Below, one piece after another: positions 702-25,023 of a DNA stretch of 64,000 nucleotides (position 1 is its first letter; every line of letters starts with the position of its first letter). Location of the stretch: contig PBCX01000011.1 in the NCBI GenBank assembly GCA_002718035.1, positions 1-64,000 on the forward strand. Reading direction: 5' to 3'. Under the pieces are notes generated by a model. It saw only the letters and a program-made list of their open reading frames with translations, searched no databases and had not been told where the DNA came from. The translations under genes were made by a program, and so were the position numbers. This DNA comes from Flavobacteriales bacterium (GTDB taxonomy: Bacteria > Bacteroidota > Bacteroidia > Flavobacteriales > TMED113).

Positions 702-2906
702 TCAATCTTTTCTGAAAGGATAATAATTCAAACTTATAAAAGATGTTCTTCCCCAAGAAATAATTGACTCAGAACCATCATGAACACCCCCTTGTATGTC
801 TGAGTTAATAGTCTTAACATCAAATATATTTTTAAATCCAATTTTTAAAATTGAATTAATTTGCTTAAAGTTTCTTTGGAGAGATGCATTAAGTAGCTGA
901 TAAGAATCTTGTTCATAAGTAACAAGTTCACCTAAATCATTAAATCTTTCAAATTCACTTTTTGATTTTAGTTTCCAATTAATATTAAATCCAAAATTAA
1001 ATTCATCATTTAAATAAGAATAAAAGGCACTAAAATTTTGTTTAGGTAATTTATATTTTAATGTATTGGTTTTAATTCTATATCTATTCCATGAAAACTC
1101 AAATTTATTTTTTTTTCCAATTTCAGTTTTTAAAAAAAAATTTAATCCTGTATATGTTGAATTACTTAAATTATAATAAGTATAAGCATTTGAATTTTCA
1201 ATTTGAGCTAAATTAATTTTATTAGTCATTTCATTTAAAAAGAATTCTATATCAAGAGAAATTAAATTCATATTATTTTTGTATGGTATATAATTTATAG
1301 ATGACTGAAAAGCATGAGATTTTTCCGCTTCTAAATTTATGTTGCCAACAATATTATGATTTGAATCAATAAATTCTAAAAAAAGCTCTTTAACAGAGGG
1401 AGCTCTAAATCCTGTAGCATACGATTGTCTAAAAATTAACCTTGGATGAAAATCGTATTTAATATTAAATGAGGGAATGAGAGGAGCAGAATAAATTGAG
1501 TGATTAGGGATTCTAATTCCTATTTTAGTATTTAATTTTGAAAATAAAATTAGGTTACTTTGTAAAAAAATTGATTGCTCAAAAATAGTAGCTTCTTCAT
1601 CAATTATTTTTGAACCTCCAACTAACTCATAATTAAAATCTAAACCAAGTTGAAACTTGAAATTATCTGATTTGGATCTGTTATACTCAGTTCTAGCATA
1701 TGCTGATTTAAAAAAATCTTTAGTATTAAATTCTGAATCAATTATAAGTTCAGAATTATCTGAGTTAATGTCAACAAAAAATTGATTTTTGTCGAACTTA
1801 GTTACAGAGTATGAAATAAGAGAATTTATATCATAAAAGTCTGAAAAATTACTAAATTTTAAATAATTTGATTTTCTTGAAGATGTATAATACATATCAT
1901 AAGCTATTCCATTTAAAGGAGGATTATTTTCAAGTCCTAATTCAATTATTTCTTCCTCAAAAATTGAAGTTTTAAATTGAATCTTATTATTATTAATTTT
2001 TTTTGACCAAAAAAAATCACCAAACAACTGTTTTTTTGGCTTCCATTCTAAAGATCTTAGTGTATCTTCACTAAATCCAGAAAAATCAGATGAGCCAATA
2101 TTAAGTTGAAAGTTTTGGCCATTAATACTTTTCTTTAAATTTAAATTTATTTGGGACATACCTATATTTTCAAAGTATGAGCTTAAATTAACATAATCCC
2201 CCGAATTGTAATTTGTTATTAAATTAATAACACCACCAGTTGAATTAGTTCCGTAAGATACTGCTGCTGGACCTTTCAAAATCTCGATTCTATCAACATT
2301 AGACAAGTTAATTTGAGAAATGTCAATTTGAGAACCTTTTCTTCCAATAACTGGTATACCGTCTATCAATATTTTTACATTATTACCTTGTAGGCCTTGA
2401 ATAGATAAGCCTGAACCTAAAAAAGAATCATAACTAATATCAAATAAAGCTTGAGTGCTGAGTAAATCAACTAAATTATTAGATGAACTATTTTCAATAT
2501 TATTTTTTGATAGTATCAAAAAATTATTAACTGAATTAGAAACTAGCTCTTCTCCAATTTGTGCTGTAACTACTACTTCTTTTAAAGGATTTTTATTTTT
2601 TTTTATATAAAATACAATGTCATTTGAAATTTCATTAATGATTGTATCAAATGTAGTATAAGTGATATGCGATATATTTAATCTAGTTGGTCTTACAAGA
2701 TCACAAGAAATAAAACCTAAGTTATTTGTGTATTTCCTTAAATATAATTTTGAATCTAAAGAATAGAGTTTAACTAAAGCCCCCTGAACTGGTTTTTTAC
2801 TTTCAAAATCAAATATTTTTATATTCTGGGATGTTAATTTAAAACTTAAAAAACTACAAAAAATAACTAATAATAATAATTTATAATATTTAAATCGACT
2901 AATCAA
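702..2906 (-). CDS. TonB-dependent outer membrane receptor (probable heme receptor, HmuR-like)
   Basis: 734 aa; signal peptide, carboxypeptidase-like N-domain, plug motif (VDRIEILKGPAAVSYGTNSTGGVINLIT), beta-barrel; adjacent to HmuY-like and HmuTUV genes. Confidence 0.9.
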   Translation of the reverse strand: MISRFKYYKLLLLVIFCSFLSFKLTSQNIKIFDFESKKPVQGALVKLYSLDSKLYLRKYTNNLGFISCDLVRPTRLNISHITYTTFDTIINEISNDIVFYIKKNKNPLKEVVVTAQIGEELVSNSVNNFLILSKNNIENSSSNNLVDLLSTQALFDISYDSFLGSGLSIQGLQGNNVKILIDGIPVIGRKGSQIDISQINLSNVDRIEILKGPAAVSYGTNSTGGVINLITNYNSGDYVNLSSYFENIGMSQINLNLKKSINGQNFQLNIGSSDFSGFSEDTLRSLEWKPKKQLFGDFFWSKKINNNKIQFKTSIFEEEIIELGLENNPPLNGIAYDMYYTSSRKSNYLKFSNFSDFYDINSLISYSVTKFDKNQFFVDINSDNSELIIDSEFNTKDFFKSAYARTEYNRSKSDNFKFQLGLDFNYELVGGSKIIDEEATIFEQSIFLQSNLILFSKLNTKIGIRIPNHSIYSAPLIPSFNIKYDFHPRLIFRQSYATGFRAPSVKELFLEFIDSNHNIVGNINLEAEKSHAFQSSINYIPYKNNMNLISLDIEFFLNEMTNKINLAQIENSNAYTYYNLSNSTYTGLNFFLKTEIGKKNKFEFSWNRYRIKTNTLKYKLPKQNFSAFYSYLNDEFNFGFNINWKLKSKSEFERFNDLGELVTYEQDSYQLLNASLQRNFKQINSILKIGFKNIFDVKTINSDIQGGVHDGSESIISWGRTSFISLNYYPFRKD

Positions 2907-4089
2907 TTATAATTTTTTTTATAATATTAATACTATTTGCTTCAATTTTAAGTAAATAAACCCCTTTTGATTTATTTAAATCAATTTTACATTCACTTTC
3001 ACACTCATATGTACTAATAATTTGACCATTCAAATCATAAATAAAAGCCGAAAAAAATTCATTAGTAATCGAAATATTAAAATTTCCATTATTGGGGTTA
3101 GGATAAATCATCACATCATCAATATTTTCATCTAAATAAGAATAGTTATATTCAATTTCTTCAATAGAAAATTCTAAATTTCCGGTTGATTGACCTGAAA
3201 AACTTTCAAAAACAATTTTATACAAGGTATCCTCATTTTGATTAAAAATAAAATATGATCTATTAGGAACCATGACAAATGAACCACTATATTCTTTCCA
3301 ATCATAACCTATTGTATTGATTTCAGAAATGAAATTTGATATGTCTAGTATTGGATCTACGTCATCAGGGGCATCAAACTGATATGTCAAATTACCATTA
3401 CTTTTCACACCCGATACATAATAATAAAAGTCACTTTGATCATAATACAAATTTTCTTCATACCTAGTAAATAATAAATCCCAATCTTCTTTAGGAGGCT
3501 CTCTATCAATCACTTGATTATTTTCTAGTGAAAAATATATGAATCTTTTACCTTGATATTGTGAAACATCTACTAGTATTGTTTCTTCACTTGAGCCATC
3601 AAGATTGGAAATTGTAAAATCAAAAACACCTGAAAAAAAACTATTAATGCGGATTTTCTTTTGGCCAATAGGAGAATCAATAACATATATTTTGTTTCCT
3701 TCAATAAATCCATTTAACTCATTGTAATTACCCCATCCAAAATCAGAGTTAACAGATGAATTGCTAACAAATGCACCGATATTCCAATCCGTATTACTAT
3801 TTCTAAGTTGTACTGCATTTTGATTTAAACTTTCAATTTGAGACCAACTATCAAAGCTTTGCCCCACTTCATATAAAGAAACAGGAGCTCCACTGTTAAT
3901 TCTAATATTTCCAGATGAAAGATCTGTTGAAAAAGCTAGATGCCAATTATTTCTTTCAGGGTATGCAGTTATTCCACTATCAAATGAATAGAAAATATCA
4001 TATTGGTAGGAAGGCCCCATACCAATTCCAACAATTTGTTGAGAGTTAGCATAATTAAATAAAACAAAAAATATTAAAATTAATTTCAT
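2899..4089 (-). CDS. HmuY-like heme-binding protein with T9SS type A C-terminal sorting domain
   Basis: 396 aa; signal peptide; WDLLFTRY segment characteristic of HmuY family; C-terminal YPNPNNGNFNISI...KGVYLLKIEANSINIIKKIIID sorting domain; overlaps receptor gene by 8 bp. Confidence 0.8.
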   Translation of the reverse strand: MKLILIFFVLFNYANSQQIVGIGMGPSYQYDIFYSFDSGITAYPERNNWHLAFSTDLSSGNIRINSGAPVSLYEVGQSFDSWSQIESLNQNAVQLRNSNTDWNIGAFVSNSSVNSDFGWGNYNELNGFIEGNKIYVIDSPIGQKKIRINSFFSGVFDFTISNLDGSSEETILVDVSQYQGKRFIYFSLENNQVIDREPPKEDWDLLFTRYEENLYYDQSDFYYYVSGVKSNGNLTYQFDAPDDVDPILDISNFISEINTIGYDWKEYSGSFVMVPNRSYFIFNQNEDTLYKIVFESFSGQSTGNLEFSIEEIEYNYSYLDENIDDVMIYPNPNNGNFNISITNEFFSAFIYDLNGQIISTYECESECKIDLNKSKGVYLLKIEANSINIIKKIIID

Positions 4090-4187: not shown

Positions 4188-5069
4188 ATGAATAAAATTA
4201 CAGCACTTAGTTTTTTAATACTTACCACTTTTTTTTCTAAAAGCACTAATGCACAGGCAAATAATTATTGCAAAAAATGCAATAATTCAACTAGAATAGT
4301 TTCTGTAGGCGGCTCAATTACTGAAATTTTATACTTCCTTAGACTAGAAAAAAATATAATTGGAGTTGATGTTACTTCGAATTTTCCTGAAGAAGCTAAA
4401 AAAATAAGTTCAGTAGGTTATGTTCGTAATATATCATCTGAAGGCATATTGTCATTAGAACCATCCATTATTTTGGGGGAAAATGATATGGGGCCAATTG
4501 GAACAATCAAACAATTAAATGAATCAAAAGTTGATTTTAGATTAATAGAGGAAGTAGAAAGTACTCAAGGAATAATTGAAAAGATACAATGTATTGGAAA
4601 CATAATGAATCATAAAGAAGCTACTGAGAAAATTTTAAATGAAAAAATATTTGAACAAGCAAAAGAACTAGAAGATATAAAAACAAAAAAAACATTAGCT
4701 GATAAAAAATTTATGCTTGTTTTAAGCATGCAACCCTCCTCTATTATTGTTGCTGGAAAAAATACTTCGGGAGATAATTTCATAAAACTTATGGGAGGTG
4801 ATAATATTTTTGATTCATTCGAAGGATGGAAGTCGGTTAGTAAAGAAACTATAATTAAGGAAAACCCCGATTATGTATTACTACCTAGTAAAAATTTACA
4901 TAAAAACTCTAAAGTTGAAGATTTTTCAAATGACGAAATGTTTTTAAATACTACTGCAGGGAAAAAAAATAATTTTATTTTTGAAGACGGCATGTCAATG
5001 TTAGGATTTGGACCAAGAACAATTTATTGTGCATTAAAAATTGCTAAAAAAATTAATCAAGAAGAATAA
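4188..5069 (+). CDS. hmuT: Hemin ABC transporter substrate-binding protein (HmuT-like)
   Basis: 293 aa; periplasmic binding-protein fold motifs (RIVSVGGSITEILYFLRLEKNIIGVDVTSNFPEEAKKISSVGY); followed by permease and ATPase. Confidence 0.88.
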   Translation: MNKITALSFLILTTFFSKSTNAQANNYCKKCNNSTRIVSVGGSITEILYFLRLEKNIIGVDVTSNFPEEAKKISSVGYVRNISSEGILSLEPSIILGENDMGPIGTIKQLNESKVDFRLIEEVESTQGIIEKIQCIGNIMNHKEATEKILNEKIFEQAKELEDIKTKKTLADKKFMLVLSMQPSSIIVAGKNTSGDNFIKLMGGDNIFDSFEGWKSVSKETIIKENPDYVLLPSKNLHKNSKVEDFSNDEMFLNTTAGKKNNFIFEDGMSMLGFGPRTIYCALKIAKKINQEE

Positions 5070-5083
5070 GTATTTTTCAAAGG

Positions 5084-6082
5084 ATGAAATCAAGTCAAAA
5101 AAAAATTGTTAAATTATTTGCCACCCTACTTATTATTTCATCTTTTATCGCAATTTACAAGGGAAGTTATAGTATTTCTATTATAGATCTTGCTTTTGGA
5201 AATCTAGAAGAGATTCAAGAATTTGTTATTTTAAATATTCGAATTCCGCGAGTTATTCTAGCTGGTTTTGTTGGTTGCTCTCTAGCTTTATCAGGTGCAT
5301 GTTTACAAGGATTATTTAGAAATCCTCTTGCAGATCCTGGTCTGATAGGAGTCTCCTCTGGTGCCGCATTGGGAGCTGCAACTTCAATCGTTATTGGGGC
5401 TGAAATTGCACCTAATAATTATATCAACTCTTTTTTTTTACCCCTCAGTGCAATATTAGGTTCAATTTTTGTTATTGTTATATTATCAATTATAACTAAA
5501 GGTTTTAAAAAATCTAATATCACTTATTTAATCTTAGCTGGTATTGCAATTAATTCATTTGCAGGAGTTGGAATTGGTATTTTAACATACATAAGTGACG
5601 ATGCCGAACTGAGGGGGTTAACATTTTGGTCTATGGGAAGTTTTGAAGGAATTAGTTGGTCTTTAATTATACCATCTATTTTATTAATTTTTTTAACAAC
5701 TATTTGGACCCTTACCTTTTCCAGAAGATTAGACATAATTCAACTAGGTGAAAATGATGCTCATAGGTTAGGCATAGATGTTAAAAAACTTAAAAAAAAT
5801 ATTATAATTTCTTCAGCGATAATTGTTGGAGTAAGTACATCTCTTGTTGGCATGATAGGTTTTGTTGGGTTAGTAATTCCCCATGTTGCAAGACTATTGG
5901 GCGGAGCTAATCATAATTACTTACTAATTGCCTCAATTTTTTTGGGTTCATCATTAATGATATTTGCCGACTTAATTTCAAGAACTATAATTCAACCAGC
6001 TCAATTGCCAGTAGGATTAATCACAAGCGCAATTGGAGCTCCATTTTTTTTATGGTTAATCTACAATATGAAGAGAAAATGA
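5084..6082 (+). CDS. hmuU: FecCD-family iron/hemin ABC transporter permease (HmuU-like)
   Basis: 332 aa, multi-TM; FRNPLADPGLIGVSSGAALGAA and GFVGLVIPHVARLLGGANH motifs. Confidence 0.92.
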   Translation: MKSSQKKIVKLFATLLIISSFIAIYKGSYSISIIDLAFGNLEEIQEFVILNIRIPRVILAGFVGCSLALSGACLQGLFRNPLADPGLIGVSSGAALGAATSIVIGAEIAPNNYINSFFLPLSAILGSIFVIVILSIITKGFKKSNITYLILAGIAINSFAGVGIGILTYISDDAELRGLTFWSMGSFEGISWSLIIPSILLIFLTTIWTLTFSRRLDIIQLGENDAHRLGIDVKKLKKNIIISSAIIVGVSTSLVGMIGFVGLVIPHVARLLGGANHNYLLIASIFLGSSLMIFADLISRTIIQPAQLPVGLITSAIGAPFFLWLIYNMKRK

Positions 6083-6837
6083 GTATAAAAATTAACAATT
6101 TGTCTTATGAAATTGAAAACAGAAGAATATTAAAAAATATTTCATTTGAAATTAATTCTGGTGAAATAATTGCTGTTCTTGGTCCAAATGGGTCTGGAAA
6201 ATCTACGCTGATTAACATTATTTCTGGAAACTTAAAAAAAACAAGTGGAGAAATTATGTTCAATGGAACAAATCTAGATAAGCTAAGTATAGAAAAGCAA
6301 GCTTTACTTAGAAGTACGATGTCTCAAAATCAAAAAATTTTATATGACTTTAAAAGTGAAGAGATAATTGAGTTAGGGTGGATTCAATTTAATAACTCTA
6401 ATTTTAGAAATGCTTTAAAAGAGGTTAGTAACGAATGTGGGATAGTTAATTTATTAGATAAAAATTTTAGTTCTATTTCCGGCGGAGAACAACAGAGAGT
6501 TCATTTTGCTAGAACTTTGATTCAGCTCTACAATGAATATATTGATGAAAAAAGATATTACTTATTTGATGAACCTACATCTAATTTAGACTTAGCTCAC
6601 GAGATTTCATTAATTAAAATTCTTAAAGAAAAAGTAAAGAAAAATTTTGGTATATTGATAGCATTACATGACCTAAACTTAGCTTATAATTTTGCAGATA
6701 AAATATTATTATTAAAAAACGGAGAATTAGCAAAATACGGAACACCTAATGATGTTTTTATCGAAAAAAATTTAAGCCATGTATATGAAATACCCATTGT
6801 TGTTAATAAAAAAGAAAAAATAATAAAGTACTACTAA
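6079..6837 (+). CDS. hmuV: Hemin ABC transporter ATP-binding protein (HmuV-like)
   Basis: Walker A GPNGSGKST, signature SGGEQQR, Walker B LFDEPTS. ORF track starts at 6052, but the internal ATG at 6079 (MSIKINNLSYEIENRR) is the more likely start. Confidence 0.9.
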   Translation: MSIKINNLSYEIENRRILKNISFEINSGEIIAVLGPNGSGKSTLINIISGNLKKTSGEIMFNGTNLDKLSIEKQALLRSTMSQNQKILYDFKSEEIIELGWIQFNNSNFRNALKEVSNECGIVNLLDKNFSSISGGEQQRVHFARTLIQLYNEYIDEKRYYLFDEPTSNLDLAHEISLIKILKEKVKKNFGILIALHDLNLAYNFADKILLLKNGELAKYGTPNDVFIEKNLSHVYEIPIVVNKKEKIIKYY

Positions 6838-6851
6838 TTTATATTTTAACT

Positions 6852-7574
6852 ATGAAAGATTTTGAAAAAGAAGCTATAAAATTATTAAGATCAAATAACA
6901 CAGGAATTTTATCAACAATCTCCAAAATAAATAAAGATTATCCTTTCGGTAGTTTTGTTACTTATGCTACACTTATAGACAGAAGTATTTTTTTTTATTT
7001 AAGCGATATTGCAGAACATACTAAAAATTTAAACTACAAATCAACAGCTTGTTTAACAATTGTTGGTTCTTCAAGTGAAAAAAATGATAAACAGAGTAGC
7101 AAAAGACTAAGTTTAATGGGTAATCTGGAAAAAGTAGATGAAAAATCAGTTGATAAAACTAAAGAGTTTTTTTTTTCTCTCAGACCTGAAAGTAAAAGTT
7201 ATGCGAATTTTCATGGCTTTAACTTTTATAAATTAAAAATTAATAAAGCAAGATGGATAGGCGGATTTGGAAAAATTGCTTGGTTAGATGAAAATAATTG
7301 GGTGGAAAATACAGTAAAATGGACAGATAAAGAAAAAGATATAATTGATCATATGAACTCAGATCATTCAGACACAATTTCTGCAGCAATTAATTACATC
7401 CATGGAATAAAAGATAAAAATGCTAAAATTAAACATTTAACAATTGATGGTTATTATGCAATTTCAAACTCAAAGTTATTATTTATTCAAACACCAGAAC
7501 CTTGTTTTACAAGTGAACAATACAGAAAAAATCTTATAATTTTATCTAAACAACATCATAAACATAAATTTTAA
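6852..7574 (+). CDS. HugZ/HutZ-like heme oxygenase (pyridoxamine 5'-phosphate oxidase-like fold plus DUF2470-type C-terminus)
   Basis: 240 aa; split-barrel N-half, C-half IIDHMNSDHSDTISAAINY; directly downstream of hmuTUV. Confidence 0.8.
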   Translation: MKDFEKEAIKLLRSNNTGILSTISKINKDYPFGSFVTYATLIDRSIFFYLSDIAEHTKNLNYKSTACLTIVGSSSEKNDKQSSKRLSLMGNLEKVDEKSVDKTKEFFFSLRPESKSYANFHGFNFYKLKINKARWIGGFGKIAWLDENNWVENTVKWTDKEKDIIDHMNSDHSDTISAAINYIHGIKDKNAKIKHLTIDGYYAISNSKLLFIQTPEPCFTSEQYRKNLIILSKQHHKHKF

Positions 7575-7631: not shown

Positions 7632-8942
7632 ATGGAACCAAAAAAAGAAATTAGAAGTACTATAACCTGCGATATGGAAGGGGTGATTGAAACAATGAAT
7701 ACTGGAGCAGAACAAATATTTGGATATAAAAAAGAAGAATTGGTAGGTAGAAAAAGAGTTTCTATTTTCTCACCCGGTGAAATAGTTTTACAAAATGTTG
7801 CAGGTTGGTTAGATACTGCTGTTAAAAAGGGAGAATACGTAGGCGAAACATACTTTGTTCGTAAAGATGGAAGCAAAATAAACGCAAAAATTCGTATAAC
7901 ACCAACTTTTAAAAACGGTAAAGATAAGCCACAAACTGGATACTGTGGCGTAACAGAAATAATAGATAAAGAAGTTGATGTTCCTATTAAATTTTCAACG
8001 AAAATGATCAAAGGATTAGCAATAACTAGAATGCCATTTACGTCAGCCTCACTATTTCCAATTTTTGTAATTGGTTCATATTTTTACGGACAAGGTATTG
8101 AAAATGTCTCATGGTCTTTGTTAGGACTAACAATCCTTGGAACTCTAACTGCGCACTTAGCTATTAATGTATTTAATGATTATTTTGATTATAAAGATGG
8201 AACTGATGAAGAAAATACAGAATACTTTCAACAAGTTTCAGGTGGAAGTCGATCTATTGAACTTGGTTTAATATCCTTAAATGGAACTAAAAAACTCGCA
8301 ATTATTTTAACTCTAATTGCCTTACTTTTTGGGTTTGCTATTATATATTTTGTGAATTCCGCAAATACATTAGGAGTTATTCAAATGGCTTTAGCCGGAT
8401 TATTTTTAGGTTATTTTTATACAGCTAGGCCTTTAAGGCTAGTTGCAAGAAGAGGGCTAGGTGAAATTGCTATTTTTCTATCATTTGGTCCACTTTTAAC
8501 TCTTGGTGCTGGATTTGCCATGTATGATGGAGCATTTTCTGAAAGCATTCACTTCTTAAACTGTTTATTGCTAGGAATTCCTCTTGGCTTACTAACTACC
8601 AATATATTATTAATTAATGAATTTCCTGATATGAATAGTGATGCTAAAACAGGAAAAAATCATTTAGTTGTAACCTTTGGGAAAAAAGCAAGTAGATGGA
8701 TATATCTATTTATTTTATTATTGGCAATAGCCTCTTCCTTTTATCTTTACTCTAAGTTAGAAAGTATATCCCTGTTAGTGCCAACTGCCTTTTGTTTGTT
8801 ATTTGGATTGCACATTTTCAAGAATATGTATAAAAACTACAATAAGAGAAGTCTAGTTAATTCAAATTGGCAAACTATTGGTCTTCAAGGTCTTTACTCT
8901 ATCATATTATGTATTTGCTTAATTATTATAAAATTTATATAA
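7632..8942 (+). CDS. PAS domain - UbiA-family prenyltransferase fusion protein
   Basis: 436 aa; N-terminal ~115 aa PAS (MEGVIETMNTGAEQIFGYKKEELVGRKRVSIFSPGE...YFVRKDGSKINAKIRITP), C-terminal polytopic UbiA with NDYFDYKDGTD and NEFPDMNSDAKTGKNHLVVTFG. Confidence 0.85.
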   Translation: MEPKKEIRSTITCDMEGVIETMNTGAEQIFGYKKEELVGRKRVSIFSPGEIVLQNVAGWLDTAVKKGEYVGETYFVRKDGSKINAKIRITPTFKNGKDKPQTGYCGVTEIIDKEVDVPIKFSTKMIKGLAITRMPFTSASLFPIFVIGSYFYGQGIENVSWSLLGLTILGTLTAHLAINVFNDYFDYKDGTDEENTEYFQQVSGGSRSIELGLISLNGTKKLAIILTLIALLFGFAIIYFVNSANTLGVIQMALAGLFLGYFYTARPLRLVARRGLGEIAIFLSFGPLLTLGAGFAMYDGAFSESIHFLNCLLLGIPLGLLTTNILLINEFPDMNSDAKTGKNHLVVTFGKKASRWIYLFILLLAIASSFYLYSKLESISLLVPTAFCLLFGLHIFKNMYKNYNKRSLVNSNWQTIGLQGLYSIILCICLIIIKFI

Positions 8943-22254: not shown

Positions 22255-25023
22255 ATGAAAAAAGATTTAATATTTATTGAAAGGTTAATTAAAGAAGTTG
22301 AAATATTAGAAAAACTTATAGAAAATGAACAACTTGAAGATTATGGAAGAATTGGGGCTGAACAAGAATTTTGCATTTTAGATAATAACTATAGAGCCAA
22401 CCCTATTAATTCGAAGATTTTAAAAAAAGTATCTAAAGAAGGTTTTGTTAATGAAATAGCTAAATTTAATATGGAGCTAAATACAGAACCAATTGACATA
22501 AGTAAAAATTGCCTTAAAAAACTTGAAAACACATTAACAAAAAAAATGAATATTGTTAAAAAATGTGCAGCAGATTTTGATTCTTCTGTAATTTTAACTG
22601 GTATTCTTCCAACAGTGAGAAAATATGATCTTAGATATGAAAATATCACTCAAAACCCAAGGTATTTTGAGTTATGTGAATCTATTAATAGAATAAGAGG
22701 GAAGAATTTCAATTTAAGAATTAGAGGAATTGATGAGTTAGTTTTTGAACACGACACTCCACTTGTTGAGGGTTGTAATACTGGATTTCAATTCCATCTT
22801 CAAATTGGGCCTAAAGATTTCACTAAAATGTATAATATTTCTCAACTCATCGCTGGACCTGTATTATCTGTTAGTGTTAACTCACCTATATTATTTGGAA
22901 AAAGATTGTGGCATGAATCTAGAATTGCTGTTTTTCAACAATCAACAGATACAAGAATTATTAGCGGTTATCACCCTGGAACATTACCAAGAGTTACATT
23001 TGGAAATGACTGGATTAAAAAATCAATTATTGAAATTTTCAAAGAGGATATTATTAGATATAAAATTTTGTTAAAATCATTAAAAAAATTTAAAAACTTA
23101 AATACTAAAAATCCAAAACTAGAGGCACTTTCACTACACAATTCTACGGTTTACAGATGGAATAGACCCTGTTATGGAATATATAAGAATAAACCAAGTC
23201 TAAGAATTGAGTCAAGAATGTTTCCATCAGGACCTACAATTTTAGATGAAATAGCAAATTCAGCTTTTTGGTTAGGACTAATGATGTTTTTCAAAAAAAG
23301 TGAAATATTTAATTTTTCTGAAACTATGGAGTTTGACGATGCTAGATCGAACTTTTATTCTGCTGCACAACAAGGGATAGATTGTACATTTAAATGGTTA
23401 AATGGTAAAAGAATTGATGCAAGAAAGTTAATCCTTAATGATTTAATACCCAAAGCTGCAGTAGGATTATCTAGTATAAATATAGACCCAATAGATATTG
23501 AAAAATATTTAAATATAATTAAAGAAAGAACTTCGCTTAGGAAAACTGGGTCAAGATGGATAATTGACTCTTTTGATTTATTATCAAAAAAAGTTTCAAA
23601 TCAGAATGCGTTAACTACAATTACATCTAAAATAATACAAAACCAAAAAGAAAATATACCAATTCACAAATGGGATTTAGCTAAAAATAGTGTTTTAATT
23701 AATAATCCCTCTAAACTACTTGTAGAAGAATGTATGGATAGATATATTTATTCAGTATATGAACATGAATCTTTTTCATTAGCGATAAAAATAAATGATT
23801 GGAAAAAACATAATTATATAGTTGTAATTAATATCAAAGGGAAAATAACAGGTGAATTAACAAAAGATATTTTAACTAATAATGAATTTTTAAAACAAAA
23901 AAATAAAATTATCATTAAGGATATAATGAAAAAAAACCCTGTAACCATAAAGCCAGATGAAAATATTTTAACAGCAGTCAAACTAATAAAAAGAAAAAAA
24001 TTAGAAATGCTCCCTGTAGTTGAAAATAAATTGTTTATTGGGATTTTACAAAAGAAATTTTTAACTCAATATGAATATGCATCACCATCATTATTATCCA
24101 AAAAAGAAATTCTAAAAAATGAGGAAAGAATATTGGGAAACTATCATTCGGGAGAAAAAGGGAAAACAATAATATTTATGTGTGGTATTCATGGTAACGA
24201 ACTTTCTGGTAAAAAAGCATTAAAAAATGTATTTAATTATTTAGAAAAAGAATCTATTGAGGTTTTGGGAAATATTATTGGAATTCAAGGTAACTTGAAA
24301 GCTATAGAGAAAAAAGAGCGGTACATAGATGTTGATTTAAATAGGATTTGGAAACAAAAAAATATAAATCTTTTGAAAAAAGGAAAGCTAAGTGACAAGC
24401 ATGAGTATAAGGAATTGAAAAATATTTATGATCTAATTAATATTATTATTGAAAAAAAGAAAAAGAAAGATATAATAATTATAGACCTACACAACACATC
24501 ATCGGCTAACGGACTTTTTTCAATAATAAATAGCAAAAACGATTATCAAATTGCCTCATCTCTTAAAATTCCAATAATTTCAAACCTATTTAAAAAATTG
24601 AAGGGTTCTTTTTCAGAGTTCTATAGTTCAAAAAATATTTCTTCTATTGTATTTGAAGGAGGTACAATTGGAGACCCAGCATCAATACATAATCACGAAA
24701 CAGGAATTTATAAAATTTTAAAAAAATGTAAAATTCTAAGTAAAAAAGATATCCCTATTTCAAAACTTGAACAAGTATCCGAAAATTATAATAATAAAAG
24801 TCTTAGTTATAAAGTCAAATATATTCACCAAATAACTAAAAAAGATAAATTTTTTATGAAACCAAACGTTATAAATTTTCAAAAAATTAAAAAAGGTGAG
24901 TTAATAGGATACGATGATAATGGAAAAGTGTTTTCTGCTATAAATGGTAAGATTTTAATGCCTCTATATCAAGAACAAGGAAAAGAGGGATTTTATATAA
25001 TCCAAAATGAAAAAATAAAGTAA
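22255..25023 (+). CDS. Fusion: glutamate-cysteine ligase family 2 (carboxylate-amine ligase) - CBS-like - succinylglutamate desuccinylase/aspartoacylase-like
   Basis: 922 aa; N-terminal GRIGAEQEFCIL..ENITQNPRYFELCESI; middle IIIKDIMKKNPVTIKPDENILTAVKLIKRKKLEMLPVVENKLFIGILQ; C-terminal IIFMCGIHGNELSGKKAL..IDVDLNRIW..IIDLHNT..VFEGG. Confidence 0.85.
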   Translation: MKKDLIFIERLIKEVEILEKLIENEQLEDYGRIGAEQEFCILDNNYRANPINSKILKKVSKEGFVNEIAKFNMELNTEPIDISKNCLKKLENTLTKKMNIVKKCAADFDSSVILTGILPTVRKYDLRYENITQNPRYFELCESINRIRGKNFNLRIRGIDELVFEHDTPLVEGCNTGFQFHLQIGPKDFTKMYNISQLIAGPVLSVSVNSPILFGKRLWHESRIAVFQQSTDTRIISGYHPGTLPRVTFGNDWIKKSIIEIFKEDIIRYKILLKSLKKFKNLNTKNPKLEALSLHNSTVYRWNRPCYGIYKNKPSLRIESRMFPSGPTILDEIANSAFWLGLMMFFKKSEIFNFSETMEFDDARSNFYSAAQQGIDCTFKWLNGKRIDARKLILNDLIPKAAVGLSSINIDPIDIEKYLNIIKERTSLRKTGSRWIIDSFDLLSKKVSNQNALTTITSKIIQNQKENIPIHKWDLAKNSVLINNPSKLLVEECMDRYIYSVYEHESFSLAIKINDWKKHNYIVVINIKGKITGELTKDILTNNEFLKQKNKIIIKDIMKKNPVTIKPDENILTAVKLIKRKKLEMLPVVENKLFIGILQKKFLTQYEYASPSLLSKKEILKNEERILGNYHSGEKGKTIIFMCGIHGNELSGKKALKNVFNYLEKESIEVLGNIIGIQGNLKAIEKKERYIDVDLNRIWKQKNINLLKKGKLSDKHEYKELKNIYDLINIIIEKKKKKDIIIIDLHNTSSANGLFSIINSKNDYQIASSLKIPIISNLFKKLKGSFSEFYSSKNISSIVFEGGTIGDPASIHNHETGIYKILKKCKILSKKDIPISKLEQVSENYNNKSLSYKVKYIHQITKKDKFFMKPNVINFQKIKKGELIGYDDNGKVFSAINGKILMPLYQEQGKEGFYIIQNEKIK

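Follow-up and report, generated by a model that had tools for sequence, protein, structure and literature searches.

A conserved fusion of a PAS domain with a MenA-like UbiA-family prenyltransferase in bacteria mostly lacking known menaquinone pathways

Introduction

Enzymes of the UbiA family have two aspartate-rich motifs on the cytosolic side of the membrane, and in AfUbiA the N-terminus lies on the same side as these motifs (PMC4106721). The described members closest to the protein considered here are MenA (1,4-dihydroxy-2-naphthoate polyprenyltransferase; TIGR00751, PRK06080), the vertebrate MK-4 synthase UBIAD1 and the archaeal AfUbiA, all of them without a PAS domain. Kinases, cyclases and transcription factors are the usual effectors of PAS domains. 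The PAS domains of ArcB and EvgS, which act on kinases, are cytosolic and have two key cysteines responding to the redox state of quinones (PMC8174306), and those of NifL and Aer bind FAD. In menaquinone synthesis, DHNA exerts feedback at MenD (PMC9835592), while DHNA scavenging has been inferred for genomes with menA and ubiE (PMC5738691). Methyl-plastoquinones were found in Nitrospira, although its genomes lack the canonical pathways (PMC12324825).

In a stretch of 64,000 nucleotides from a Flavobacteriales bacterium (contig PBCX01000011.1; hereafter the window), one gene encodes a UbiA-family variant with a likely regulatory PAS domain. No paper on a PAS–UbiA fusion was found in the open-access literature searched. 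The architecture is real, widely conserved and undescribed within the literature searched.

Domain organization

An earlier note on this DNA had read the gene as a PAS domain joined in one frame to a full UbiA prenyltransferase, and Pfam, NCBIfam, AF2 and Foldseek all bore this out (Table 1). The N-terminus is a PAS domain by two profiles, PF13426 PAS_9 (residues 11–98, E=2e-9, 38 bits vs a cut-off of 27 bits) and TIGR00229 sensory_box (40.5 bits vs a cut-off of 22.9), and PF01040 UbiA covers residues 144–406 (E=4e-30, 105 bits vs a cut-off of 34.2). The AF2 model of the full-length protein (pLDDT 90.4, pTM 0.87) shows PAS topology at residues 8–110, followed by UbiA helices, and in Foldseek searches PAS and UbiA structures were matched by separate portions of the protein. 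Both PF01040 and PF13426 are present in 55/55 aligned relatives.

Table 1. Features of the PAS–UbiA fusion gene and its upstream neighbours in the window
Feature	Position	Strand	Remarks
Heme/corrinoid-type ABC uptake genes and gene of HugZ-like protein, upstream of the fusion	4188..7574	+	adjacency to the fusion not conserved
PAS–UbiA fusion gene	7632..8942	+	436 aa, single ORF free of internal stops
PAS domain, residues 8–112	7653..7967	+	PF13426, AF2, Foldseek
Cys13, strand A-beta	7668..7670	+	invariant, 55/55
Cys105, strand I-beta	7944..7946	+	53/55
Linker and start of first helix, residues 113–132	7968..8027	+	length kept in most relatives
UbiA-family membrane prenyltransferase domain, residues 133–436	8028..8939	+	PF01040, Foldseek
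First Asp-rich motif, N182-D183-x-x-D186-x5-D192	8175..8207	+	intact
Second Asp-rich motif, D333-xxx-D337	8628..8642	+	both Asp invariant in 55

Prenyltransferase domain

Membership of the UbiA superfamily is evident from the two Asp-rich motifs and the multi-helix fold (alignment, AF2, Foldseek). Residues N179, D183, D186 and D192 are invariant across 55 sequences, N182 is nearly invariant, and the pair Y263-T264 is conserved in the alignment of the fusions. AfUbiA (4tq3/4tq4) and UBIAD1 (8djk) were matched by the structure of the UbiA part; by sequence, the best PDB match is also UBIAD1 (E=1e-19), and the second PDB family matched is chlorophyll synthase. In the phylogenetic tree, the PAS–UbiA sequences form one clade (support 93/99), the sister of which is MenA (87/90).

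All NCBIfam MenA equivalog models were missed, the best score being 97.9 bits vs 225–264, and for TIGR00751 the score was 67.7 vs a cut-off of 102.15; the protein probably works as MenA does, yet is not filed as MenA. Of the roles named in the earlier note, quinone, heme O or related biosynthesis, the nearest families point to the MenA/UBIAD1 branch and not to heme O synthase. A separate CtaB is present in the window genome.

An acceptor other than a quinone (a carotenoid, a tetrapyrrole or another lipid), with a PAS domain sensing light, oxygen or a metabolite, is a less probable alternative; it is favoured by the match to chlorophyll synthase, but MenA as the sister clade and the wide margin by which UBIAD1 is the best match argue against it.

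In AfUbiA both the N-terminus and the Asp motifs are cytosolic, and by this homology the PAS domain of the fusion probably adjoins the mouth of the active site of the UbiA domain.

PAS domain

The model of the PAS domain alone (AF2, pLDDT 85) matched 3lyx with a TM-score of 0.77–0.83, and its assignment rests on profiles above cut-off together with the PAS fold. Fold matches of the PAS part include 3lyx, 5iu1, NifL and Aer; ANR PAS and CPS_1291 are among the nearest structures, and the heme PAS of EcDOS was also matched. The fold is common to the FAD-PAS domains of NifL and Aer; in the fusion flavin would be a putative ligand, and the effector is a membrane enzyme.

A heme, redox or oxygen ligand had been proposed earlier from the position of the gene after heme genes. 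The PAS domain in the window contains no His, and an alignment of 48 homologues has no column with a conserved His, N55, replaced by His in 7/48, coming nearest; an axial His of the FixL/DOS type is thus absent, and the proposal of a heme ligand finds no backing. The NCRF-type flavin cysteine motif of LOV domains was not found in the PAS alignment either, so that both FixL/DOS-type heme binding and LOV photochemistry appear unsupported by the sequences. Control of the enzyme by a heme- or oxygen-sensing PAS domain, for which the EcDOS match and the heme-uptake genes adjoining the fusion in the window could be cited, is very improbable given the missing His; heme gating is unlikely, and a Cys-ligated heme is possible.

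Two near-invariant cysteines, Cys13 and Cys105, were found in the alignment, as was the conserved motif RVSxFSPGxxV...WL of the F-alpha region. Strands A-beta and I-beta, on which the cysteines lie, are neighbours in PAS folds. The cysteines form a putative redox switch and may sense redox state or quinones, as the cysteines of ArcB and EvgS do. The EvgS pair is located on H-beta and I-beta, whereas that of the fusion is on A-beta and I-beta and belongs to a PAS domain attached to a prenyltransferase instead of a kinase.

The PAS domain might also be a structural, dimerisation or partner-docking module devoid of sensing. Dimerisation is common among PAS domains, ANR PAS and CPS_1291 are among the closest structures, and a recognisable cofactor site (axial His, LOV Cys) is absent; the very strong conservation of the domain, with the two cysteines and the F-alpha motif, nevertheless seems to exceed the usual needs of docking, making such a module rather unlikely.

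Distribution and conservation

A scan of GTDB genomes revealed 80 loci with 41–81% identity, the matches beginning near residues 1–9 unless the contig ends. The fusion recurs in at least five bacterial phyla, its hosts being Flavobacteriales, Flammeovirgaceae/Marinoscillum, Saprospirales/Phaeodactylibacter, Kapabacteria, Ignavibacteria, Neomarinimicrobiota, Chloroflexi and one Myxococcales MAG. Its presence in dozens of independent assemblies from several phyla excludes a chance fusion or misassembly. In the family to which the window belongs, it was found in 9 of 12 genomes, counting that of the window, and the three genomes without it are 80–84% complete.

The fusion gene is present in a single copy per genome, and a profile of its PAS domain gave exactly one match, located on the fusion, in each of 24/24 genomes. 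Pairwise identity averages 65% in the PAS domain vs 50% in the UbiA domain, the former being higher in 98% of 1,485 pairs, which points to stronger constraint on the PAS domain than on the enzyme. By sequence, the PAS–MenA-like prenyltransferases make up a single-copy orthologous family.

Carriage by phages or plasmids was rejected, as there was no viral or phage match and the four plasmid matches were of low identity and covered only the PAS portion; a role in defence was rejected, with no match in PADLOC. At one locus (L063:4969-6258 = G064/G098) a single in-frame TGA splits the ORF into 165 and 224 aa, through decay or a sequencing error. A contig labelled ‘Candidatus Methanomethylicia archaeon’ (L070) carries a Marinoscillum-type locus with CoaX, the fusion and a phosphatase, its archaeal label being a probable result of binning contamination.

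Neighbouring genes

The genes for heme uptake and the HugZ-like protein noted earlier upstream of the fusion are indeed present in the window, but the other genera of this family have genes for an aldehyde dehydrogenase and a Kunitz-domain protein in that place; the absence of this adjacency also speaks against a heme- or oxygen-sensing role. A conserved operon was rejected, as the neighbours are lineage-specific (gyrase/CoaX, DnaK, acyl-CoA dehydrogenase, SDR, pterin-4a-carbinolamine dehydratase), and guilt by association therefore gives no function. No operon partner linking the fusion to quinones was found at the loci examined, which favours a non-quinone acceptor.

At eight Flavobacteriales loci, including L055:7289-7612, the gene of pterin-4a-carbinolamine dehydratase lies directly downstream of the fusion on the same strand, with a gap of less than 60 bases. 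Elsewhere in the window, a gene for an HmuY-like protein that bears a Por secretion tail (2899-4089) adjoins that of a TonB receptor (702-2906), both divergent from the heme/corrinoid ABC genes, and positions 22255-25023 encode a 922-aa protein in which a CBS domain is unusually paired with an AstE/AspA-type catalytic domain at the C-terminus.

Occurrence with menaquinone pathways

Genes of MenB and MqnC are both absent from 39 of the 46 fusion-bearing genomes tested, which are MAGs and SAGs; MenB is present in one (G068) and MqnC in six (G052, G074-G077, G086), while among those tested for MenD it was above cut-off only in G068. Outside Flavobacteriales the genomes had been picked for presence of the fusion, and absence of the pathways there may reflect lineage background. 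Occurrence together with MenB/MenD pathway genes, by which MenA equivalogs are recognized, is not typical of the fusion. The Flavobacteriales panel comprised 298 genomes at least 80% complete, of which 239 contain MenB, 37 MqnC and 22 neither; the fusion is present in 0/239, 5/37 and 10/22 of them, respectively (Fisher p=1e-9, with shared ancestry ignored, the absence of the pathways being phylogenetically clustered). This over-representation where menaquinone synthesis is missing counts against a non-quinone acceptor.

UbiE is kept in many fusion-bearing genomes without menaquinone pathways; it was not found in the window genome, Marinoscillum or Neomarinimicrobiota. A search of about 1.2 Mb of the 1.26 Mb of the window genome, which is 87% complete, with E. 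coli probes did not find MenC, MenD, MenF or complex I, while subunits of Nqr, subunit I of haem-copper oxidase, type-2 dihydroorotate dehydrogenase and an NrfC-like protein are encoded. The bacterium, as far as this 87% of its genome goes, possesses quinone-dependent enzymes without a known quinone pathway. Apart from the fusion, its only UbiA homologues are CtaB and a divergent protein, and the fusion is the sole MenA-like enzyme in the available part of the genome. The divergent protein (L003:1420-2241), of 273 aa and without an NCBIfam match, is encoded next to kynureninase. SdhA was not detected with the E. coli probe despite the presence of Nqr and haem-copper oxidase, and may be encoded in the missing part.

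In Kapabacteria/Ignavibacteria a true MenA (NF004751, 316 bits) is present beside UbiE in addition to the fusion, and in Phaeodactylibacter genes of the futalosine pathway and complete menaquinone prenyltransferases occur in the same genomes. In these lineages the fusion would thus work otherwise than in the basic menaquinone step, or conditionally; it is no universal stand-in for MenA, and its identification as simply MenA is contradicted. The same coexistence lends support to a non-quinone acceptor. The homogentisate/plastoquinone route was also rejected: HPPD does not discriminate, as the window family and most genomes without the fusion have it, while many fusion-bearing genomes do not.

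Proposed function

The best-supported reading, held tentatively, is that of a prenyltransferase of quinone headgroups gated by its PAS domain, which may sense redox state or quinone. The UbiA domain, of the MenA/UBIAD1 branch, would attach a polyprenyl chain to an aromatic headgroup that most probably belongs to a respiratory quinone. Where menaquinone is not made de novo, as in the window genome, this headgroup would probably be imported (DHNA- or menadione-like, as proposed for scavengers with MenA and UbiE) or come from an undescribed route. The N-terminal PAS domain, on the cytosolic side of the active site, would serve as a built-in regulator. Gating is plausible because the fusion is inseparable, the PAS domain is strongly conserved and the N-terminus is cytosolic by homology; redox state or quinone is the leading candidate signal because Cys13/Cys105 are near-invariant and the pocket is conserved. 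The architecture, the intact catalytic motifs, the phylogeny, the constant pairing of PAS domain and enzyme and the genomic co-distribution are observed; substrate, gating, ligand and direction of effect are all inferred here. Alternatively, the fusion may salvage or remodel quinones from outside, as UBIAD1 does, make a second quinone or form a product that is not a quinone.

Nearly all fusion-bearing genomes lack MenD above cut-off, and with it the MenD control point. A more speculative and rather doubtful extension is that in several bacterial lineages without MenB/MenD and MqnC an undescribed route, be it quinone salvage or the formation of a non-canonical quinone, replaces de novo menaquinone synthesis, with the fusion as its committed and redox-gated step; the case would resemble that of Nitrospira.

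If the tentative reading is true, an ancient, inseparable PAS domain on an integral-membrane biosynthetic enzyme would mean direct post-translational control of the synthesis of quinone-type lipids, and the fusion may be a built-in point of control where respiratory quinones are obtained by an unrecognised route. That it is concentrated in respiring bacteria devoid of both known menaquinone pathways raises the question of which quinone is used by these marine and sediment bacteria and from where, and makes the identity and source of the quinone testable.

Canonical MenA was also found adjoining UbiE and a CrtD-like desaturase in a Kapabacteria/Ignavibacteria genome (G081; L126:6092-9140), and adjoining UbiE at L127:6639-8254. 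With none of MenB, MenD and MqnC found in either genome, these bacteria are apparent DHNA scavengers or users of an unknown headgroup route.
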